A stretch of 64,000 nt of DNA, from contig NZ_NIUB01000007.1 in the NCBI RefSeq assembly GCF_002197815.1, forward strand, positions 102,755-166,754. Reading direction: 5' to 3'. Origin of the DNA: Pseudomonas oleovorans subsp. oleovorans. GTDB lineage: Bacteria; Pseudomonadota; Gammaproteobacteria; Pseudomonadales; Pseudomonadaceae. The notes under the pieces were generated by a model that did no database searches, was not told where the DNA came from, and saw only the letters and a list, made by a program, of their open reading frames with translations. Shown one piece after another: positions 24,245 to 35,259 of the stretch. Both the position numbers and the translations under genes were made by a program. Every line of letters starts with the position of its first letter. Positions within the stretch are counted from its first letter, which is position 1.

Positions 24245-27145
24245 ATGTCGTCGCTCACGCCCCCAAGCAGCCTTACCCCGCATCACGCCAAATATTTCGC
24301 CTGGGAGCTCACGCGCCGTCGCGCTGCCAGCGAAGAGGATCGGCTCTCCCAATCGCTATTCGATGCCAGTGTCGATCGCAATCCACACCAGATAGACGCA
24401 GCCCTTTTCGCCTTGCACAACCCACTCAGTAAAGGGGTGATGCTGGCGGATGAGGTAGGCCTCGGCAAAACCATCGAAGCCGCGCTCGTCCTGTGCCAGA
24501 TGTGGGCAGAACGCCGCCGTCGTTTGCTCGTCATCTGCCCGGCAGCGCTGCGCAAACAGTGGGCACAGGAGCTCTCCGACAAATTCAACCTACCGACGCA
24601 AGTGCTGGACGCTCGGACCTGGAAATTGCTCCGCGAGCAAGGCATCTACGATCCATTGGATCGCGACGTCATCAGCATCATGTCGCTGAACTTTGCAGCC
24701 CGTATGGAGGAGCAGCTTGGCAACATTCCCTGGGATTTGGTCGCCATCGATGAAGCCCACAAGCTGCGCAACGCCCATCGCAAAAGCAATGAAACCGGCC
24801 AGTCGCTCAAGCGTTCATTGGCTGGACGGCGCAAGCTTCTGCTGACCGCCACCCCTCTGCAGAACTCATTGATGGAGCTGTATGGTCTCAGCTCCTTGAT
24901 AGACGAAGACATCTTCGGCGATGAGCGCAGCTTCCGTGCCCAGTACAGCAACATCGACGCGGATCTAGTTGCGCTAAGTCGCCGCCTGCATGCCTTCATC
25001 AAGCGCACACTGCGTAAAGACGTCCTTGAGTACGTGCCCTATACGCAGCGTCACGCACTGACTACACCGTTCACCCCCAGCGATGATGAACAGCGCCTCT
25101 ACGATCTCATTTCCACCTACTTGCATCGCGACTTCAGCTACGGCTTTCCACAACGGCAAAAGCATCTCGTCGCACTCATCCTGCGCAAGCTCCTGGCCTC
25201 TTCGACAGAAGCTGTTCTGGCTACCCTGGAAGCCATCAAGGCGCGCCTACAGAAGCTACTGGATCGCCAGAGCATCGATGAGCAATGGTTCGAGCATCTG
25301 ATCGAAGAGAACGAACTAGAAGAAGACCTACTGGAAGCCGCAGAAGATGCAGCAGGTTACGAAGCCCAAGACTCGGCCAGCAAAATCGACTTCGAGCTGC
25401 TGAGCAAGGAAATCACCGAGCTCGATACCTACATCGAGATTGCCCACAGCATCCGCGAAGACCAGAAATCATTCGCCTTGCTCAATGCGCTGGAACAAGG
25501 CTTTGCACGCATGTCCGGCATGGGCGCCCCACGTAAGGCCGTCATTTTCACCGAGTCACGCCGGACTCAAGAATACCTGGCCCGTTTTCTAGAAGCCCAC
25601 GGCCACCTTGGCAAAGTCGTCACCTTCAGTGGCGGCAACCAGGGTGAGGCCGCTACCGGCATCTATCAACGCTGGCTGGCTCGCTACCACGGTAGTGACC
25701 GTGTAACCGGCTCGCCAGCTATCGATCGCCGCACAGCGCTTATCGATCACTTCCGTGATACGGCCGAAATTCTGATTGCGACCGAGGCTGCCGCCGAAGG
25801 TGTAAACCTACAGTTCTGCTCTTTGGTCGTGAACTATGACCTGCCGTGGAACCCGCAACGAGTAGAACAGCGCATTGGGCGTTGCCACCGCTATGGCCAA
25901 CGGTTTGACGTAGTCGTCATCAACTTCCTCAACCAGCGCAATGCCGCAGATCGACGAGTCCTGGAACTCCTTCAGGACAAGTTTCATTTGTTCGATGGCG
26001 TTTTTGGTGCGTCTGACCAAGTGCTCGGCAGGATCGAAGCCGGCATTGATTTCGAGAAGCGCATTGCTGAGATCTACAACTGCTGCCGCACCCCACAAGA
26101 GATCGACGCAGCGTTCACCAGCTTGCGTGCCGAACTGGACGCCGACATCCAGGCAAGAATGCTGGAAACCGAAAAGCTCCTGCTGGAAAACTTCGATGCG
26201 GACATTCACAGCCTGCTCAAGACCCACAAAGAGCGCGCCGAAAGCCAGCTAGACCGTATAACCCGCCTGTTCTGGAAGCTGACTCAGTACATCCTGGCTG
26301 AGCACGCTAAATTCGACAGCCAGAACCTGGCTTTCGATCTCCAGCTGCCACCTCTCCCACAGGTGGTCACAGGGCATTATCAGCTCATCCGCAAAGGCGA
26401 ACAGGCCAAGCAGATCCAGCCTGAAAACACCCGCATCTACCGGCTTACACACCCCCTTGGTGAATACGTTCTCGATCAAGGCCGCAGCGCTCAGGCGCCC
26501 AGCGCAACGCTGCACTTCAGTTATGCGCAATGGCTTGAAGCCCGTAACCCACGTATCAGCGTGATCGAGCAACTGCTGGGTAAACAGGGCTGGCTTCAGC
26601 TCAACCTGCTGGAACTCGATAGTTTTCAGCGCGAAGAGCACTTGGTTTTCACCGCCATGACCGATAGCGGCGAGCTACTCGATCAAGAAACCTGCGAGAA
26701 GCTCTTCCAGCTTTGCGCAAATGTAGAGCCAACGCAGATCAGCCCGCCTGATGATCTGCATGGCAATGCCCGTCGCCAGATCGATGCCGCATTGAGCCAA
26801 GCACTGGAACACAATGACAAGTTCTTCCAGCAAGAACGCGACAAGCTCGATGCCTGGGCCGAAGACCGCATTCTCGCTGCCGAGCAAGCCCTACAAGACA
26901 CCAAGCTCAAGCTCAAAGGACTGAAACGTCAAGCGCGAGTTGCCCAAAGCATGGACGAGGCCCGCCGTCTGCAGGATGACATTCGCAAGGTAGAGGGAGA
27001 ACAGCGGCGTCAACGCCAGGAAATCTTCTCCGTGGAGGACGAAATCGAGGCTCGCCGCGATGCGCTCATCGAAGCTCTGGAGAAACGCCTGCATCGCGCC
27101 AGCCGTACCCAAACACTCTTCACCGTGCGCTGGGCCGTGATTTGA
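24245..27145 (+). CDS. SNF2/RapA-like superfamily 2 helicase
   Basis: The 966-aa protein has helicase motif I LADEVGLGKTIEAA (near residue 70), motif II AIDEAHKLRN (near 168), motif III LLTATPLQNSLMEL (near 200), and in lobe 2 TEAAAEGVNLQFC and QRIGRCHRYGQRFDVVVINFL. The last 130 residues form a long charged coiled coil (QALQDTKLKLKGLKRQ...). It is larger than a bare SNF2 core and lacks a recognisable nuclease. SNF2 ATPases of this type occur in several defence islands (for example beside methyltransferases in DISARM-like loci) and translocate on duplex DNA. It is the first gene of the island; GAGGGAACCTG precedes the ATG. A RapA transcription-recycling role is less likely given the neighbours. 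Confidence 0.85.
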   Translation: MSSLTPPSSLTPHHAKYFAWELTRRRAASEEDRLSQSLFDASVDRNPHQIDAALFALHNPLSKGVMLADEVGLGKTIEAALVLCQMWAERRRRLLVICPAALRKQWAQELSDKFNLPTQVLDARTWKLLREQGIYDPLDRDVISIMSLNFAARMEEQLGNIPWDLVAIDEAHKLRNAHRKSNETGQSLKRSLAGRRKLLLTATPLQNSLMELYGLSSLIDEDIFGDERSFRAQYSNIDADLVALSRRLHAFIKRTLRKDVLEYVPYTQRHALTTPFTPSDDEQRLYDLISTYLHRDFSYGFPQRQKHLVALILRKLLASSTEAVLATLEAIKARLQKLLDRQSIDEQWFEHLIEENELEEDLLEAAEDAAGYEAQDSASKIDFELLSKEITELDTYIEIAHSIREDQKSFALLNALEQGFARMSGMGAPRKAVIFTESRRTQEYLARFLEAHGHLGKVVTFSGGNQGEAATGIYQRWLARYHGSDRVTGSPAIDRRTALIDHFRDTAEILIATEAAAEGVNLQFCSLVVNYDLPWNPQRVEQRIGRCHRYGQRFDVVVINFLNQRNAADRRVLELLQDKFHLFDGVFGASDQVLGRIEAGIDFEKRIAEIYNCCRTPQEIDAAFTSLRAELDADIQARMLETEKLLLENFDADIHSLLKTHKERAESQLDRITRLFWKLTQYILAEHAKFDSQNLAFDLQLPPLPQVVTGHYQLIRKGEQAKQIQPENTRIYRLTHPLGEYVLDQGRSAQAPSATLHFSYAQWLEARNPRISVIEQLLGKQGWLQLNLLELDSFQREEHLVFTAMTDSGELLDQETCEKLFQLCANVEPTQISPPDDLHGNARRQIDAALSQALEHNDKFFQQERDKLDAWAEDRILAAEQALQDTKLKLKGLKRQARVAQSMDEARRLQDDIRKVEGEQRRQRQEIFSVEDEIEARRDALIEALEKRLHRASRTQTLFTVRWAVI

Positions 27146-27301: not shown

Positions 27302-27309
27302 GCCACTAG

Positions 27310-27465
27310 CAGGCCGTTGAAAAACGTAAGCGAGGCAACCAGTGCAAGGCAAAAGCAGGCGAAAAAGCGGAGTTTACGAGCTGTAAATGAGCATTTTGAT
27401 CGGACTCGCGCACGAGCCTGTTTTTAACGCAGCAATGGCAACGCAGATAGTTTTTCAACGGCCTG
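27310..27465. repeat. MITE-like element with 16-bp terminal inverted repeats
   Basis: CAGGCCGTTGAAAAAC at the left end is the exact reverse complement of GTTTTTCAACGGCCTG at the right end. The 156-bp interior has no gene. A diverged copy in the opposite orientation lies at 60314-60450. Short inverted-repeat elements of this kind are non-autonomous and scattered in Pseudomonas genomes. Confidence 0.8.
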
Positions 27466-27497
27466 TTAGATGGATACTAAGGATTAGGACTGCATCC

Positions 27498-28619
27498 ATG
27501 ACTGCATCCCCCCTGCCCTGGCAGGCTGACAAGCCTTATAACCAACTTCCGCCATTGCCGCCCACGGCAGAGCTGGAAACCCGTGCAGTGCTCAAGCGCT
27601 GCATCGAGGCCCGCACAGCCCTGGCGGAATTGAAGCAGGCAGCCGAGCTGATTCCCAACCAAACGGTATTGATCAACACCATCCCGTTACTGGAAGCCAA
27701 GGACAGCTCGGAAATCGAAAGCATCGTCACTACCACGGATTTGCTCTTCCAGCATGCCCAGGATGGCGACAATCACGCCGACCCGGCCACCAAGGAAGCC
27801 CTGCGTTATCGCAAAGCCCTGCACCAGGGCTATCTGTCCTTGAGCGAGCGCCCACTCTCGACCGTTACGGCAGTGGAGATCTGCCGCACGCTCAAGGGCG
27901 TGAATATGGATATTCGTCGGGTGCCGGGTACCCAGTTGGCCAACGACCGCACCGGCGAGATCATCTACACACCACCGGAAGGTGAAGACCATTTGCGCGA
28001 CCTGCTCGCCAACTGGGAGCGCTTCCTGCACAACGAAACCGACCTCGACCCGCTGGTACGCATGGCCGTTGGGCATTACCAGTTCGAAGCGATCCACCCG
28101 TTCGCCGATGGCAACGGCCGCACCGGGCGCGTGCTCAACACCCTGTACCTGATTCAGGAAGGTCTGCTGAGTCTGCCGATTCTCTACCTCAGCCGTTACA
28201 TCATCGCCCACCGCGCTGATTACTACCGCCTGCTGCTGGATGTCACCCGCGACCAGGCCTGGGAACCTTGGCTGCTGTACATGCTCAGCGCCGTGGAAGA
28301 AACCGCCCGCTGGACCACCGCCAAGATCGCCGCCATCCGCAGCCTCTCGGAACACACCACCGAGTTCGTGCGCGAACGCCTGCCGAAAACCTATTCCCGT
28401 GAGCTGGTCGACGTGATTTTCGAACAGCCCTACTGCCGTATCAGCAACCTGGTCAACAAGCAGATCGCGCAGCGTCAGGCCGCCTCCCGCTACCTGAAAG
28501 AGCTAGTCGGCATCGACGTGCTGCGCGAAGTGCAGGTCGGCAAGGAAAAACTCTTCATTCATCCCAAGCTGATGCAGCTCCTGACGCGCGACAGCAACGA
28601 ATTCCAGGCCTACGCCTGA
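27498..28619 (+). CDS. Fic-domain protein (probable AMP-transferase) with N-terminal inhibitory motif
   Basis: The 373-aa protein contains HPFADGNGRTGR (near residues 199-210), a complete Fic catalytic motif with the essential histidine and the anion-binding GNGR. Upstream near residue 70, DSSEIES matches the (S/T)xxxE inhibitory helix of class II Fic proteins, whose Glu blocks ATP binding. A C-terminal winged-helix segment (ISNLVNKQIAQRQAASRYLKEL) follows. Class II Fic enzymes AMPylate proteins, sometimes themselves. AGGA eight bases before the ATG at 27498 sets the start; the longer frame from 27387 runs through the MITE. It lies 19 bp before the methyltransferase gene, so it may be part of the same operon. 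Confidence 0.88.
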   Translation: MTASPLPWQADKPYNQLPPLPPTAELETRAVLKRCIEARTALAELKQAAELIPNQTVLINTIPLLEAKDSSEIESIVTTTDLLFQHAQDGDNHADPATKEALRYRKALHQGYLSLSERPLSTVTAVEICRTLKGVNMDIRRVPGTQLANDRTGEIIYTPPEGEDHLRDLLANWERFLHNETDLDPLVRMAVGHYQFEAIHPFADGNGRTGRVLNTLYLIQEGLLSLPILYLSRYIIAHRADYYRLLLDVTRDQAWEPWLLYMLSAVEETARWTTAKIAAIRSLSEHTTEFVRERLPKTYSRELVDVIFEQPYCRISNLVNKQIAQRQAASRYLKELVGIDVLREVQVGKEKLFIHPKLMQLLTRDSNEFQAYA

Positions 28620-28638: not shown

Positions 28639-31600
28639 ATGAGCAAGCAAAAAGACCAATTCATCGCCCTGCTGGGCGAACTGTTCCAGCTCAACCAACC
28701 CGAGCTCGACTTTGGTTTGTACCGCATCCTTCACGCCCGTAGCGCCCAGATAAAGGCCTTTATCGATACCGAACTGGGCAGCGAGATCGATGCCCACTTT
28801 GCCGAGCAATCGCAAAGCAACGCCCACGACTCGCTCGAAGCCGCTCGGGTCAGGGTCGCCGAAACACTCGGCGAAGATGCCTTCCTGCCCACGGGTGAAC
28901 TGAAACCCGAGTATCGCGGCACCAAGGTTGGCAAGGAGTTCGAGCTCGCTCAGCAGCAAGCCCGCGACGGCGGCGGCGTGTTGGCGGACGATGCCCAGGT
29001 CTACGAGCACCTGTACCGCTTCTTCAGCCGCTACTACGACAAAGGCGACTTCATGTCCAAGCGCTACTTCGTCGCCGAGAACGACAGTCGCGCCGCCCCC
29101 TATGCCGTGCCTTATGACGGCCGCGAAGTCATGCTGCACTGGGCCAACAAAGACCAGTACTACATCAAGTCGAGCGAAGCGCTGAGCAACTTCACCTTCG
29201 ACCTCAGCACGGCACAGGCCAAGGAACAAGGCCAGCAAAGCGGCTTCGACTTCCAACCCGCGCATGCCACCCCGCTGAAGGTGCACTTCCGCCTGGCCGC
29301 TGCCGCAGAGGGTGAGCACAATAACGTCAAGGAGGGCCAGGAGCGTTTCTTTATCATCCACGCGGCAGAGCCGCTGAAACTGGAAACCAACGATAAAGGC
29401 CTGCCGGAACTCGTTATCCAGTTCGACTACCGTCCGGATCATGAAAAAACCGGCCAGGCGGCCACCTGGCAACAAAAACGCCTGGCTGAAGCCGAACAGG
29501 TGATTGGCGATCAACTCGCCAAGCTGGCCTCAGCAACTCAGCAACTCAGCAACTCAGCAACTCAGCAACTCAGCAACTCAGCAACTCAGCAACTCAGCAA
29601 CTCAGCAACTCAGCAACTCAGCAACTCAGCAACTCAGCAACTCAGCAACTCAGCATTTTACTTTCGCCAGCACCCACTGGCAAGCAGCCTAATCGAACTT
29701 TATTAGGGAAATACCTGAGTCAATTCACTGCACGCAATACCATGGATTACTTCATCCATAAAAACCTGGGTGGATTCCTGCGTCGTGAGCTGGATTTCTA
29801 TATCAAGAACGAGATCATCCGCCTCGACGATATCGAAGCTGCCGATGCTCCGCGCGTGGATGACTACCTGAAGAAGCTGCGTGTACTGCGCAAGATTGCC
29901 CGCCGTATTATCGACTTTCTCGCCCAGCTCGAAGACTTCCAGAAGAAGCTTTGGCTCAAGAAGAAATTCGTAGTTGAGACGAATTGGCTGATCTCATTGG
30001 ATCGCATCTCTGAAGAGCTATATTCCGACATCTGTGCTGAAGCCAATGCAGCACCAGAGGATGGCCTACTAAAGCAATGGAGGGAGCTGTTTGACATCAG
30101 AGTTACCCAACTGACCCCCAGTTTTCTTAACAAAAATAGCGCACTGGTAATAGACACGGCACAGCTAAGTGACGAACTCAAATCTCGCATCATTGCCAGC
30201 ATTAGCGAGCTGGAGGAGCGTGCCAATGGCGTATTGGTCAACGCCCACAACTTCCATGCATTAGCCTTGCTGAACACGCGCTATAAAAAATCAGTAAAAA
30301 CTGTCTATATTGACCCGCCTTACAACACTGGCGCCGGAGAGTTCCTCTACAGGGATGGATACAAAGAATCCTCTTGGCTCTCCATGATGGCCAATGCAGT
30401 TGAGCAAGGTCATTCTCTTCTAAAACCTGAGGGTTCGCTATTCGCCTCAATCGATGACAACGAATCGCACCGCCTAAAACTCAATCTCGAACAAGTATTT
30501 GGCGCTGAAAATCATATCGCTGATATTGTTTGGCAGAAAAGATATGCCCCAGATGTAAGGACTATAATCAGCGATGCACATGAATATGTACACTGCTTCG
30601 CAGTAGAACGGGAAAAATTCGCAGAAACAAGACGCAAGCTTCCGCTGACTGCGACCCAAACTAATCAATTTGACAACAGCGATGATGACCCTCGCGGCCC
30701 CTGGAAAGCTGCTGACTTTACAGCTCAGGGGTATCGCCCAAATCAAATGTATGAAATTACCAACCCTGCAGGTCAGGTAATGACACCACCAGCAGGACGT
30801 TGCTGGGGCGTAGTTGAGGAAAAGTACAAACAACTGCTTGCAGATAATCGCATGTATTTTGGCCGAGATGGCACGGGCAGACCTGCAGTTAAGCGTTTCT
30901 TGAATGAAATGGATGGAATGGTTCCTTGGACATGGTGGTCTTGCCAGGATGTCGGTCACTCTCAAGATGGCATGAAAGAAAGTGTGTCCTACTTTGGACG
31001 TGAAGGCGCATTCCTGACAGCAAAACCTCTGGAGCTAATCAAGCGTGTTATCAAAATCAGCAGTGCTAATGGAGACATCATTGCAGATTACTTTGCAGGC
31101 TCAGGCACCACTGCTGATGCTGTGATTAGGCTGAATGCTGAAGAAAGCTTCAATAGGCGCTTCCTATTGGTTGAAGCCGGCGAGCATTTCGACTCAAAAC
31201 TCAAGACTCGCATTCAGAAAATTGGCTATACATCAAAATGGCGCGAGGGTAATCCAGAAACTGCCGACGGCAACTCTCTCCTGGTGAAGTACATCCGCCT
31301 GGAATCTTTCGAGGACACGCTAAACAATCTCCAACTCCCAGATACGCCTCGTTTGAATGTCAGCGCGACCGACTCCAGTGAGATGGCCCGCGACTATTTG
31401 CTCAAATACTGGCTGGAATTCGAAACGGCTGGCAGCCCGAGCCTGCTCAATGTTCGCGAATTTAGTGACCCGACCGCCTACAAGCTCAAGGTCAAACAGC
31501 CAGGCAGCGATGCCCAGGTGGAGAAAACCATCGACCTGGTGGAAACCTTCAACTGGCTGATTGGCCTGCATGTCGCCCACCTCGATCAGCCGCGCCGCTA

Positions 31601-31979
31601 TGCCATCGAGCTGGTGCGCGAAACCGATCCCGAGCTGCCGCAGGATCAGGACACGCGCTGGCGCGCCACCTCCATCAAGGAGCGTGAAGACGGCGAGTTC
31701 TGGTTCCGCGCCGTGGAGGGCCATGTGCTGCGTGTACCGGGTGATGAATTGTCACGCGAGCGCGTGCTGGTGATCTGGCGCAAGCTCACCGGCAACTCCG
31801 GTCGCGACCAGGCGGCGCTGGAGGCCTGGTTGGGCAAACGTGGCATCAACCCACGTGAGAGCGAGTTCGCCCGTATTTACGTCAATGGCAACCATGCGCT
31901 GCCCAGCGATGGGGAAGCGGCCCTGCGCGTTCAGTTGATCGAACAAACCTTCGCTCAGCGCATGTGGGAGGACGCCTGA
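28639..31979 (+). CDS. type III-like adenine DNA methyltransferase, phase-variable and out of frame (OFF) here
   Basis: The N-terminal part (28639-29706) and the catalytic part (in frame from about 29658 to 31979) belong to one protein: PNRTLLGKYLSQFTARNTMDYFIHKNLGGFLRRELDF reads on smoothly in the second frame before its first ATG at 29742. An octanucleotide tract of 15 units lies at the frame break. At this length the first frame ends at TAG 29704-29706, giving a 355-aa fragment. With 14 or 17 units (one lost or two gained) the protein would be about 1110 or 1118 aa. Motif IV YIDPPYNTG (near residue 555) precedes motif I DYFAGSGTTADAV (near 815), the beta-class order of type III Mod N6-adenine enzymes. 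The target-recognition part between them is AT-richer than its surroundings. No good ribosome site precedes ATG 29742, so separate translation of the catalytic half is doubtful. Res follows after one base. Confidence 0.9.
29531..29655 (+). repeat. octanucleotide tandem repeat CAGCAACT x15 (plus CAGCA)
   Basis: Fifteen perfect, uninterrupted 8-bp units fill 29531-29650, with a partial unit to 29655. All three frames through the tract are open; 24 bases encode QQLSNSAT. Because 8 is not a multiple of 3, each gain or loss of a unit shifts the downstream frame, so one state in three is ON. Confidence 0.98.
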
Positions 31980-31980
31980 G

Positions 31981-34900
31981 ATGGCTCGTGCTCCACGTAA
32001 AGGCAAAGCTCAGCCGCCCTTGGTGGCCAGCCATTTCCAAGAGGCGTTGGTGCTCAACCAGTACCTGATCAGCCTGTTTGGCATCGACCCGCTGGTTACG
32101 CACAAGGACGGCACGCACAGCGTTCGCCCGCTGGAGATCATCGCCAAAAGCCTGCGCGGCGCTACGGCGGGCATCGACAAGAATGGCAAGCATCATTTCC
32201 TCACCGCCCTGCTCTCGCACTTACCGCCCCATGCCGCATTGACCCCGGCCCAGTTGGAGCGCTACGACGCCAATCTGGTGGCCCATACGCGCACCATCAA
32301 TGCGCGGCGCAAGCACAAAGGTGAAATTGCCTGGAAGTACTTCCAGTGGCTCACGCTGCTGTTTGTCGAAATCTACCTCGACCGCTATTTCAACGACCGC
32401 CAGGGGCTTTGTGTTGCTCTCAATGCCTTTATTGAGCGCTTCAACCAGCACCACCTCACGCAGGGGCGCGAAACCGGCATCGGCGCTTACGCCGTCGAAG
32501 ACCTCAACAAGCTCTGCCTGCAGAACGCCACAGGCAGCGGTAAAACGCTGCTGATGCACATCAACCTGCTGCAGTTTGCCCACCATGCGCGGACAACCGG
32601 CCAGGCCGATGATTACAGCCGGGTGATCGTGCTCTCGCCGAATGAGCGCTTATCCGAGCAACACGAGCGTGAGCTGCGTGAGAACGGCTTCTACCCCGAG
32701 CCGCTGCGCCAGGAAAGTGACCTGATCTCGCGCGGGCAAAATGCCCTGGATGTGCCGCTGCTGACCGAAATCACCAAGCTGGCGGACGAGCAAAAGGTCA
32801 AGCAGATGGCGGTCGACAGCTTCGGCGATGCCAACCTGCTGCTGGTGGATGAAGGCCATCGCGGCATGAGCGGCAGCGACTGGAAGAGCAAGCGCGACAA
32901 GCTGGCAGCAAAGGGCTTTACCTTCGAGTACTCAGCCACCTTCAAACAGGCCGTCAAGGCTGCCAATGACCGTGCACTGGCTGAAAGCTACGCCAAGGCC
33001 GTGCTGTTCGATTACAGCTACCGCTACTTTTATGCAGACGGTTACGGCAAGGACTACCGCATCTTCAACCTGCCCAAGGATGAACAGGCGCACAAGGACA
33101 CCTACCTCACCGCCGCCCTGCTGGCGTTCTACCAGCAACTACGCATGTACACGGAAGCCGGCAAGCGTTACGCCGGCTATAACCTGGAAAAACCGCTATG
33201 GGTCTTCGTCGGCGCCAGCGTCAGCGGGCGCAAGGTCGACGAGGAAAGCGTATCGCCCTCGGACGTCGCGCAGATCCTCGATTTCCTCGCGCGCTTTCTG
33301 GCCCATCGTGAAGCCTTCACCACGCTCATCGACACCGTGCTCAACGGCAATAGCCAGCAGACCGGCCTGCTCGACGCCCAAGGCCGCGATATCTTCATAC
33401 AGTCTTTCCCCTACCTGAAAAGCTTGAAGCAAAGCGCGGCGCAGCTTTATGCCGACATCTGCCAACGCCTGTTCCACGCCCCTGGTGGTGGTCATCTGGT
33501 GGTCGAGCGGGTGAAAGGCGACAGCGGCGAACTGCTGCTCAAGGTGGGCGAGGCCGAACAACCCTTTGGCGTGATCAACGTGGGTGACGCCGCAGCGCTG
33601 GCCAAGCATGTGCAGAGCGAGCTGGAAGACAAACACTCCCTGGCCGAGGTTCGCCCGAGCGAGTTTGGCGAGCCGGTATTCGCGGACGTGCACAAGCCGA
33701 CTTCGCCCATCCATATGCTGGTCGGCTCGAAGAAATTCATCGAGGGCTGGGACTGCTGGCGCGTGTCCAGCCTTGGCTTGATGCGTATGGGCCAGAGCGA
33801 GGGCGCACAGATCATTCAGCTTTTCGGCCGTGGCGTGCGCCTGCAAGGCAAGGACATCAGCTTGATGCGTACCAGCCGCTATCAGCCGGTCAATCCGCCA
33901 CAGGATATTCACTTCCTGGAAACGCTGAACGTGTTCGGCGTGCAGGCTGACTTCATGGCGACCTTCCGCGACTTTCTGGAAAGCGAAGGCCTGCCTCCGA
34001 ACGACGCGCCGCATGTCGAGGAAATCAAGCTCAACGTCACCCATGACTTCGGCCAGAAGCTCAAGATCCTGCGCTCCAAGTTCCGCAAGGACACGCAGGA
34101 GCAGTACGACTTCCGCAAACATGGCCCCATCGTGGATCTCAGTATCGATGCCCTCCCCCCAGGCATGACCAAAGGCGCCATGCCGCTGGTGGTCGATCGC
34201 TTCCCACGTCTGCAGATGCTCCAGGCCACCGAGGTCACCGGCCAGACACCAGAGGCTATGGCCAACCCGCCCCGCCACTTCGACAACCTGAGGCTGTCGA
34301 TGCTGGACTGGGATCGGCTTTGGTTCGATTTGGAGCGTTTCCGTCGCCAGCGACATCTGGATAACGTCATCATCAAAGCCGGGGCATTACGCTCGTTGCT
34401 GGAGATCCCGGACTGGTATCGCATCCTGGTGCCAGCGCATTGGTGGACACCTTCGATGGCCAATCTGCGTCACTGGCAGTCCATTGCACTGGAATTGCTC
34501 TGTGGCGCTCTCGAACGCTGCTTCAATCACCAGAAGCGCAAATATCTCGACCCGCGCATGGAGCTGGTGCTGCTCACGCGTGAGCATGAAAACCTGCCAG
34601 GCGACGACGCCAGCTATCAGTTGATCGTCGAAGCAACGGAGCAATACCTGATCGACGACATCCGCAAGCTGAAGGACGAGCTCGCTCAGGTTGGCTGGCG
34701 TGACAGCGGCTATATCCAGGGTTTAAGGCTGGATGCTCACCTCTACGAGCCACTACTTTCCAGCGAGAAGGTGAAGATCCAGCCTGTCGCGCTGAACAAA
34801 TCCGAATTCCAGTTCGTTGACGACCTACGCCAATGGCTGCAAGCCAACGAGGCGAATCTTGCCGAGCGTGGCGAGCGCATCTTCTTGCTACGCAACCTGG

Positions 34901-35259
34901 CTCGCAAAGGCGTTGGCTTCTTCGAGGCGGGTAATTTCTATCCCGACTTCATCCTGTGGTGCCTGAAGCCTGACGGCAGCCAGCACATCTGCTTCATCGA
35001 CCCGCACGGTCTTGAGCATGAAGGCCCTGGCAGCGACAAGGTTCAGCTCGCGCAAAACATCAAGGATCTTGAAGCGCGCCTGAATGATCCAGAAGTGAGG
35101 CTAGAGTCGGCCATCCTATCGCCAAGTACGAACCGCATGCGTATCGAGCATCTGTGGAGCCAGCAAGGCCTTGCAAAGCCTGATCTGAGTGATCTGCACG
35201 TCTTCTTCATTGGCGAAGAGGGCTATATGGACGAAGTGCTGAGCCTCGTATTGCAGTGA
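31981..35259 (+). CDS. type III-like restriction subunit (DEAD/DEAH helicase-nuclease)
   Basis: The 1092-aa protein has Walker A LQNATGSGKTLLM (near residue 181), Walker B LLLVDEGHRGMSG (near 290), FEYSATF as motif III, and lobe-2 motifs FIEGWDCWRVSSLG and IIQLFGRGVRLQG, the Res order of COG3587-like proteins. The C-terminus holds AGNFYPDFILW followed by CFIDPHGLEHEGP, a PD-(D/E)xK-like fold in which the usual lysine position appears as histidine. The ATG is one base after the Mod stop (TGAGATG), so the two are translationally coupled. Res enzymes need Mod to find DNA, so the OFF state of Mod should silence restriction too. Confidence 0.87.
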   Translation: MARAPRKGKAQPPLVASHFQEALVLNQYLISLFGIDPLVTHKDGTHSVRPLEIIAKSLRGATAGIDKNGKHHFLTALLSHLPPHAALTPAQLERYDANLVAHTRTINARRKHKGEIAWKYFQWLTLLFVEIYLDRYFNDRQGLCVALNAFIERFNQHHLTQGRETGIGAYAVEDLNKLCLQNATGSGKTLLMHINLLQFAHHARTTGQADDYSRVIVLSPNERLSEQHERELRENGFYPEPLRQESDLISRGQNALDVPLLTEITKLADEQKVKQMAVDSFGDANLLLVDEGHRGMSGSDWKSKRDKLAAKGFTFEYSATFKQAVKAANDRALAESYAKAVLFDYSYRYFYADGYGKDYRIFNLPKDEQAHKDTYLTAALLAFYQQLRMYTEAGKRYAGYNLEKPLWVFVGASVSGRKVDEESVSPSDVAQILDFLARFLAHREAFTTLIDTVLNGNSQQTGLLDAQGRDIFIQSFPYLKSLKQSAAQLYADICQRLFHAPGGGHLVVERVKGDSGELLLKVGEAEQPFGVINVGDAAALAKHVQSELEDKHSLAEVRPSEFGEPVFADVHKPTSPIHMLVGSKKFIEGWDCWRVSSLGLMRMGQSEGAQIIQLFGRGVRLQGKDISLMRTSRYQPVNPPQDIHFLETLNVFGVQADFMATFRDFLESEGLPPNDAPHVEEIKLNVTHDFGQKLKILRSKFRKDTQEQYDFRKHGPIVDLSIDALPPGMTKGAMPLVVDRFPRLQMLQATEVTGQTPEAMANPPRHFDNLRLSMLDWDRLWFDLERFRRQRHLDNVIIKAGALRSLLEIPDWYRILVPAHWWTPSMANLRHWQSIALELLCGALERCFNHQKRKYLDPRMELVLLTREHENLPGDDASYQLIVEATEQYLIDDIRKLKDELAQVGWRDSGYIQGLRLDAHLYEPLLSSEKVKIQPVALNKSEFQFVDDLRQWLQANEANLAERGERIFLLRNLARKGVGFFEAGNFYPDFILWCLKPDGSQHICFIDPHGLEHEGPGSDKVQLAQNIKDLEARLNDPEVRLESAILSPSTNRMRIEHLWSQQGLAKPDLSDLHVFFIGEEGYMDEVLSLVLQ

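Follow-up and report, generated by a model that had tools for sequence, protein, structure and literature searches.

Can a pseudomonad switch a DNA methyltransferase on and off by changing the length of an octanucleotide repeat inside the gene's own coding sequence? The question is raised by a 64-kb stretch of DNA (hereafter the window, meaning the whole stretch analysed; coordinates refer to it) in which an eight-base array lies between two parts of a type III-like methyltransferase gene (mod) that are read in different frames. An earlier note had taken this arrangement for a slippage switch, and we now consider it very probable that the gene encodes a phase-variable type III-like Mod, captured OFF, in which tract length switches the product between a full-length and a truncated form.

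The tract and the methyltransferase gene

28639..29706, + strand, N-terminal part of mod, 355 aa here, stop at 29704-29706; PADLOC MTase_III (PDLC03646) model positions 2-172
29531..29655, + strand, octanucleotide tract, 15 x CAGCAACT plus a partial CAGCA, perfect
29656..31979, + strand, catalytic part of mod in the other frame; Pfam N6_N4_Mtase (E 7.1e-32), best PDLC03646 stretch at model positions 312-596
30312..30323, + strand, DPPY motif, from the window sequence
31092..31106, + strand, FAGSG motif, from the window sequence

The tract runs for 125 nt without any mismatch, as exactly 15 CAGCAACT units followed by CAGCA, which is the count that the earlier note had given (the source assembly is a draft of 109 contigs, and the number 15 may be inexact). 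It is the sole tandem array in the 64-kb window at a TRF score of 50 or more (score 254, 100% matches), and no CAGCAACT array lies elsewhere in the 4.85-Mb genome: the pattern search returned 13 overlapping matches to a three-unit pattern and 14 to a two-and-a-half-unit pattern, one tract accounts for all of them, and the reversed-pattern control gave 0 in the same genome. Across 398 same-genus genomes the pattern occurs in three, the window's own included, with match counts of 14, 18 and 22 that are fully explained by mod tracts of 15, 19 and 23 units (the reversed-pattern control over the 398 genomes gave one match, in G022). Since eight and three have no common factor, the tract translates in all frames to the same cyclic, stop-free peptide QQLSNSAT, and all frames are open, as had been claimed. 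No stable hairpin was predicted for either strand of the tract (minimum free energy 0 as DNA), and hairpin-driven slippage was rejected on this basis.

On either side of this array the two reading frames carry complementary parts of one enzyme. The 355-aa product comprises the N-terminal part, the tract peptide and a 16-residue out-of-frame tail, while the catalytic frame is open from within the tract to 31979 (829 codons from stop to stop) and yields 745 aa from ATG 29742, with no further stop in the 745 codons. Both parts match a single 1057-position PADLOC MTase_III model, in order, and the C half resembles the solved type III Mods 6k0w, 4zcf and 7dsu by profile and fold. DPPY is the catalytic motif (DPPYNT is invariant across a 40-sequence alignment) and FAGSG the AdoMet-binding motif; FAGSG lies 3' of DPPY, the beta-class order. 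The gene thus has what is asked of the Mod of a type III restriction-modification (R-M) system, beta-class motif order together with similarity to type III Mods.

Of 120 homologues listed for the C part, continuity over the joint holds in 113, with at least 140 residues ahead of the DYFIHK motif, four begin at or near that motif (P0001, P0002, P0008 and P0099) and three do not have it. The point of continuity proposed in the earlier note, LLGKYLSQFTARNTMDYF, occurs in the 1078-aa protein of Pseudomonas mendocina EF27 (P0003). P0001 begins within the QQLSNSAT tract, and P0002 is the 745-aa C part as a separate protein, starting from the equivalent of ATG 29742 in an assembly whose longest contig is 4.73 Mb; together with P0008, these records probably stem from gene calling on copies that are broken or out of frame. 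The idea of two natural proteins instead of one was therefore rejected, and the homologue sequences support one long type III-like Mod gene, cut into two frames by the tract in the present assembly. Outside the window, the genome has another Mod-like open frame, shorter at 641 codons, at G000:C2:81923-82975; it gives no match to the model's N-terminal part.

In-frame tracts of 21, 157 and 189 nt correspond to ~7 to 63 residues. An AlphaFold2 model of the natural protein of P. indoloxydans JCM 14246 (mean pLDDT 70.4) places residues 302-345, within the tract (~298-360), below pLDDT 50, which fits a tract peptide acting as a loose connector, the confidence of the model being low (pTM 0.44).

Unit number and frame among relatives

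The number of units varies widely among relatives, from 2 to ~67, and is thus not the constant that would have spoken against a switch. Counted from DNA, EF27 (locus L032) has 2 units, in frame (1078 aa), JCM 14246 (L031) 23, in frame (1139 aa), and the single-contig genome G078 (L010) 19, in frame (1116 aa), whereas the window has 15 and is out of frame. Counted from truncated proteins, P0122 has 24 units, out of frame with the same tail as the window, P0123 has 7, out of frame in the third register, and P0121 (E. oleovorans) has ~67 in an interrupted array, so that at least one copy may be locked. Three of these seven copies are in frame and all three registers are represented, a ratio of ON to OFF that is biased because the N-half search admitted only proteins of at most 1.75 x 355 aa and so favours truncated copies.

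Given the window's flanks, unit numbers of the form 3n + 2 keep the gene in frame. The frame rule of the earlier note (14, 17 or 20 units in, 15 or 16 out) agrees with the relatives that share these flanks, where 2 and 23 units are in frame and 24 and 7 are out. In G078 the tract starts 22 nt earlier in mod, and it is because of this shorter 5' flank that the frame is kept at 19 units. The locus has the sequence attributes of a gene that is phase-variable through a simple repeat: a tract in coding sequence, a unit that is not a multiple of three, and both ON and OFF lengths in nature; the other hallmark, frequent and reversible switching inside a population, is predicted. Intact relatives, varying copy number and homologue continuity together uphold the earlier view of one long Mod that is split and out of frame here.

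The window and EF27 are 100% identical over 29945-31144 and differ at a single position in the 345 nt 3' of the tract (29656-30000), yet their tracts are 13 units apart. Similarly, the 60-nt 5' and 130-nt 3' flanks of the window and JCM 14246 are identical and JCM 14246 has 8 more units. Judged from these two comparisons, the tract changes faster than its own flanks.

The array is not a general feature of the family, a possibility that we rejected since, besides the window, it is confined to L010, L031 and L032 among the 37 further loci examined. The hinge motif was found in 35 of the 37 (L012 extends just 270 nt upstream); three of the loci are duplicates (L011 of L031, L013 of L033 and L014 of L034), and in L033 the motif match is on the wrong strand, the whole locus being without such an array.

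An exchanged cassette beside the tract

29945..31300, + strand, catalytic/recognition cassette; replaced in JCM 14246 by a sequence 51-60% identical

Compared in 300-nt steps, the window and JCM 14246 are 93-100% identical across four genes, drop to 51-60% at ~29945-31300, and reach 74% in the step where the right edge falls; the cassette edges are taken from these steps, which place the right edge between 31145 and 31445. As the catalytic motifs lie inside too, the cassette is, on this alignment, wider than a recognition domain. The window's cassette is also found in EF27, P0001 and P0002 (100%), in G078 (89%) and, without the tract, in P0004 (90%). That of JCM 14246 recurs in P0008 (100%; hinge not seen) and, without the tract, in P0241 (100%) and P0009 (98.7%). 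By these comparisons, the tract sits where a conserved N-terminal part meets a catalytic/recognition cassette that strains exchange.

In a tree of 21 chosen N parts, a supported clade (97/84) unites the six other tract-bearing rows to the exclusion of G078, which groups with three tract-less rows (86/92, under the tool's full-support mark). This separation suggests that the switch and its chassis have probably recombined, or that the tract arose twice; slippage is thus not the only process at the tract.

Operon neighbours

24245..27145, + strand, SNF2-family helicase, DrmD-like, first gene of the conserved neighbourhood; NF038318 632.7 bits, below the cut-off of 950
27387..28619, + strand, SoFic-type Fic protein (protein adenylyltransferase family); NCBIfam NF046030 659.1 bits, cut-off 550
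31981..35259, + strand, res, type III restriction-like helicase of 1092 aa; PDLC03654 REase_III E 1.1e-166, Pfam ResIII and DEAD

The helicase, Fic, Mod and Res genes all point in the same direction. A single base separates the mod stop from the res ATG, with GGGAGG at 31966-31971 within mod, and 19 bases separate the Fic stop from the mod ATG. The second attribute of a type III R-M system, an adjoining Res with a helicase motor, is accordingly present at 31981-35259; no PDB relative of Res was found by sequence. In PD-(D/E)XK nucleases a lysine occupies the position of the histidine in the Res motif IDPHG. At 34942-35010, Res reads NFYPDF...IDPHG, with histidine as the fourth motif residue. 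When loci were scanned with that residue left free, 11 of 18 had DPHG and 7 had no match to the pattern.

The Fic protein scores above the NCBIfam equivalog cut-off for SoFic (659.1 vs. 550 bits). Its true start is likely ATG 27498 rather than the ORF start at 27387, as the match starts at residue 32 in L033, L034, L036 and L043. Between helicase and Fic, at 27306-27469, lies an element of ~165 bp with 20-bp terminal inverted repeats (95% complementary), in which the Fic ORF called at 27387 has its opening codons. BLAST places it at 45 further sites in the genome (70-100% identity, some sites being fragments of one copy), and by these sequence features it is a high-copy miniature element. Carriage of the locus was detected on none of 72,556 plasmid records; two of these match, over 1-2% of the query, inside the 27306-27469 element.

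The helicase is closest to DrmD (622.7 bits in PADLOC), and assignment of the locus to DISARM was rejected, the DrmD score of 632.7 bits lying below the curated cut-off of 950. All four genes occur in 8 of the 21 loci L031-L051, part of which are ended by contig ends (L031, L032, L033, L034, L036, L039, L043 and, with a distant Fic, L045). Among the others, Fic is the one gene absent from L037 and L046, the helicase is the one absent from L035, and L044 has no more than Mod and Res. In L035, L037, L039, L045 and L048, mod and res are 1.7-3.5 kb apart, presumably through an added gene.

How the switch would work, and alternative explanations

In the proposed mechanism, replication slippage would add or remove units and thereby switch reversibly between the full-length enzyme and a truncated, likely inactive one; slippage as the mutation, its rate and its reversibility inside one population are what we infer here. 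With the window's flanks about one tract length in three would be ON. Loops of 8 nt probably evade mismatch repair, so switching should need no mutator. The OFF product of 355 residues is without both catalytic motifs, and OFF would likely lower Res as well, since res starts right after the Mod stop with a likely ribosome site inside mod, and the 2.3 kb of message left untranslated would break the coupling. Known type III Res proteins require Mod, and OFF should for this reason be harmless to the host. ON, in turn, would likely yield m6A methylation and restriction with a specificity set by the resident cassette.

How well the alternatives fare depends in part on selection. The dN/dS of the N half is 0.054 against EF27 and 0.060 against JCM 14246; that of the C half is 0.079 between the window and G078, and 0.178 between the window and EF27, where changes are few (10.5 synonymous, 6.5 nonsynonymous). 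Purifying selection, as estimated from these substitutions, extends to the half whose frame is lost in the window. A decaying pseudogene, as the broken frame of the present assembly might suggest, is hence scarcely credible, and was rejected on the dN/dS of 0.079 against G078; the 745 codons hold no further stop and relatives keep intact copies. The catalytic part might instead re-initiate at ATG 29742, 35 nt past the stop, and form a second working polypeptide, so that no true OFF state exists. Both catalytic motifs do lie within this part, which has its own protein record (P0002), but no ribosome-binding sequence was seen just upstream of 29742, the N part is under purifying selection, and the continuity of 113 of the 120 listed homologues speaks against separate polypeptides, all of which makes re-initiation highly improbable.

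It is also rather unlikely that the 15 units reflect an assembly artefact, with an intact frame in the living strain. A draft of 109 contigs leaves room for such an error, and the start of P0001 inside the tract looks as though a contig had broken there. An artefact would, however, concern the state alone and not the switch, and the out-of-frame copies P0122 and P0123 come from assemblies with longest contigs of 4.70 and 4.62 Mb, not from short-read fragments. A more serious contender, if still an unlikely one, is a slowly changing repeat, altered by rare slippage or by recombination between lineages, with OFF fixed in the window's lineage and no switching within populations. All observed variation is between strains or species and could have accumulated slowly, the P0121 array is long and interrupted, and the place of the G078 N part outside the clade of other tract-bearing rows suggests that pieces have been exchanged. 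Against slow change stand tracts 8 and 13 units apart between near-identical flanks, the perfect purity of 125 nt and the purifying selection on the out-of-frame half. We thus favour a phase-variable Mod caught in its OFF state. More tentatively, and with somewhat less than even odds, this could be a bet-hedging switch at the joint of chassis and cassette that gates an uncharacterised four-gene defence system (DrmD-like helicase, Fic, long Mod and Res), with populations mixing ON and OFF cells and recombination moving specificities and the switch between switchable and non-switchable copies.

Comparison with known systems

The locus shares with classical type III R-M systems such as EcoP15I and Mbo45V the DPPY before FAGSG, an adjoining Res helicase, and profile and fold matches. 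In type III systems, cleavage depends on two unmethylated sites in inverted orientation, and m6A is placed on one strand. The locus differs in ~330 extra N-terminal residues of Mod (relative to the C part), in the IDPHG of Res where a PD-(D/E)XK nuclease would have D/ExK, and in the helicase and Fic genes upstream. This helicase is nearest to the DrmD of DISARM, though below the NCBI cut-off (632.7 of 950).

As in the phasevarion mods (modA of Haemophilus and Neisseria, modM of Moraxella, modH of Helicobacter and modS of Streptococcus suis), a simple repeat in coding sequence sets the frame by its length, and alleles have a common backbone with a differing recognition region. In a phasevarion, ON/OFF methylation alters the expression of many genes. 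Repeat units of known phase-variable mods are mostly shorter than 8, with the tract near the gene start. The window instead has an eight-base unit at about codon 298, between the N-terminal and catalytic parts, in a Mod of ~1080-1140 aa and in a pseudomonad host.

The earlier note had regarded an octanucleotide in such a gene as no standard example. This stands insofar as no title or abstract start in our literature search mentions a type III mod gene with an octanucleotide (the 2018 type III survey or REBASE may hold an earlier report); the wider claim was overstated, as simple sequence repeats are present in 17.4% of type III mod genes according to PMC7394358, which also places repeat-bearing mod genes in commensal and environmental organisms. 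Eight-base units of variable copy number are likewise described, in the portions consulted, for hmw and pdxS of H. influenzae (PMC2651432, PMC3309571), where they lie upstream of the genes, whereas the window's lies inside the methyltransferase coding sequence.

A phase-variable type III mod is therefore already known, and the new features are the eight-base unit, its position in the middle of the gene, the length of Mod and a likely environmental pseudomonad, the host being judged environmental from its relatives. The interest of the locus exceeds that of an average phase-variable mod because a natural ON/OFF pair exists, with the same cassette and near-identical flanks at 2 units (in frame) and 15 (out of frame), and because the switch may control a defence operon of several genes. 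The pair suits asking whether defence, and not host adaptation, drives methyltransferase phase variation. If the switch works, a pseudomonad would randomly flip a methyltransferase, and with it likely a phage-defence operon, as host-adapted pathogens do with mod.
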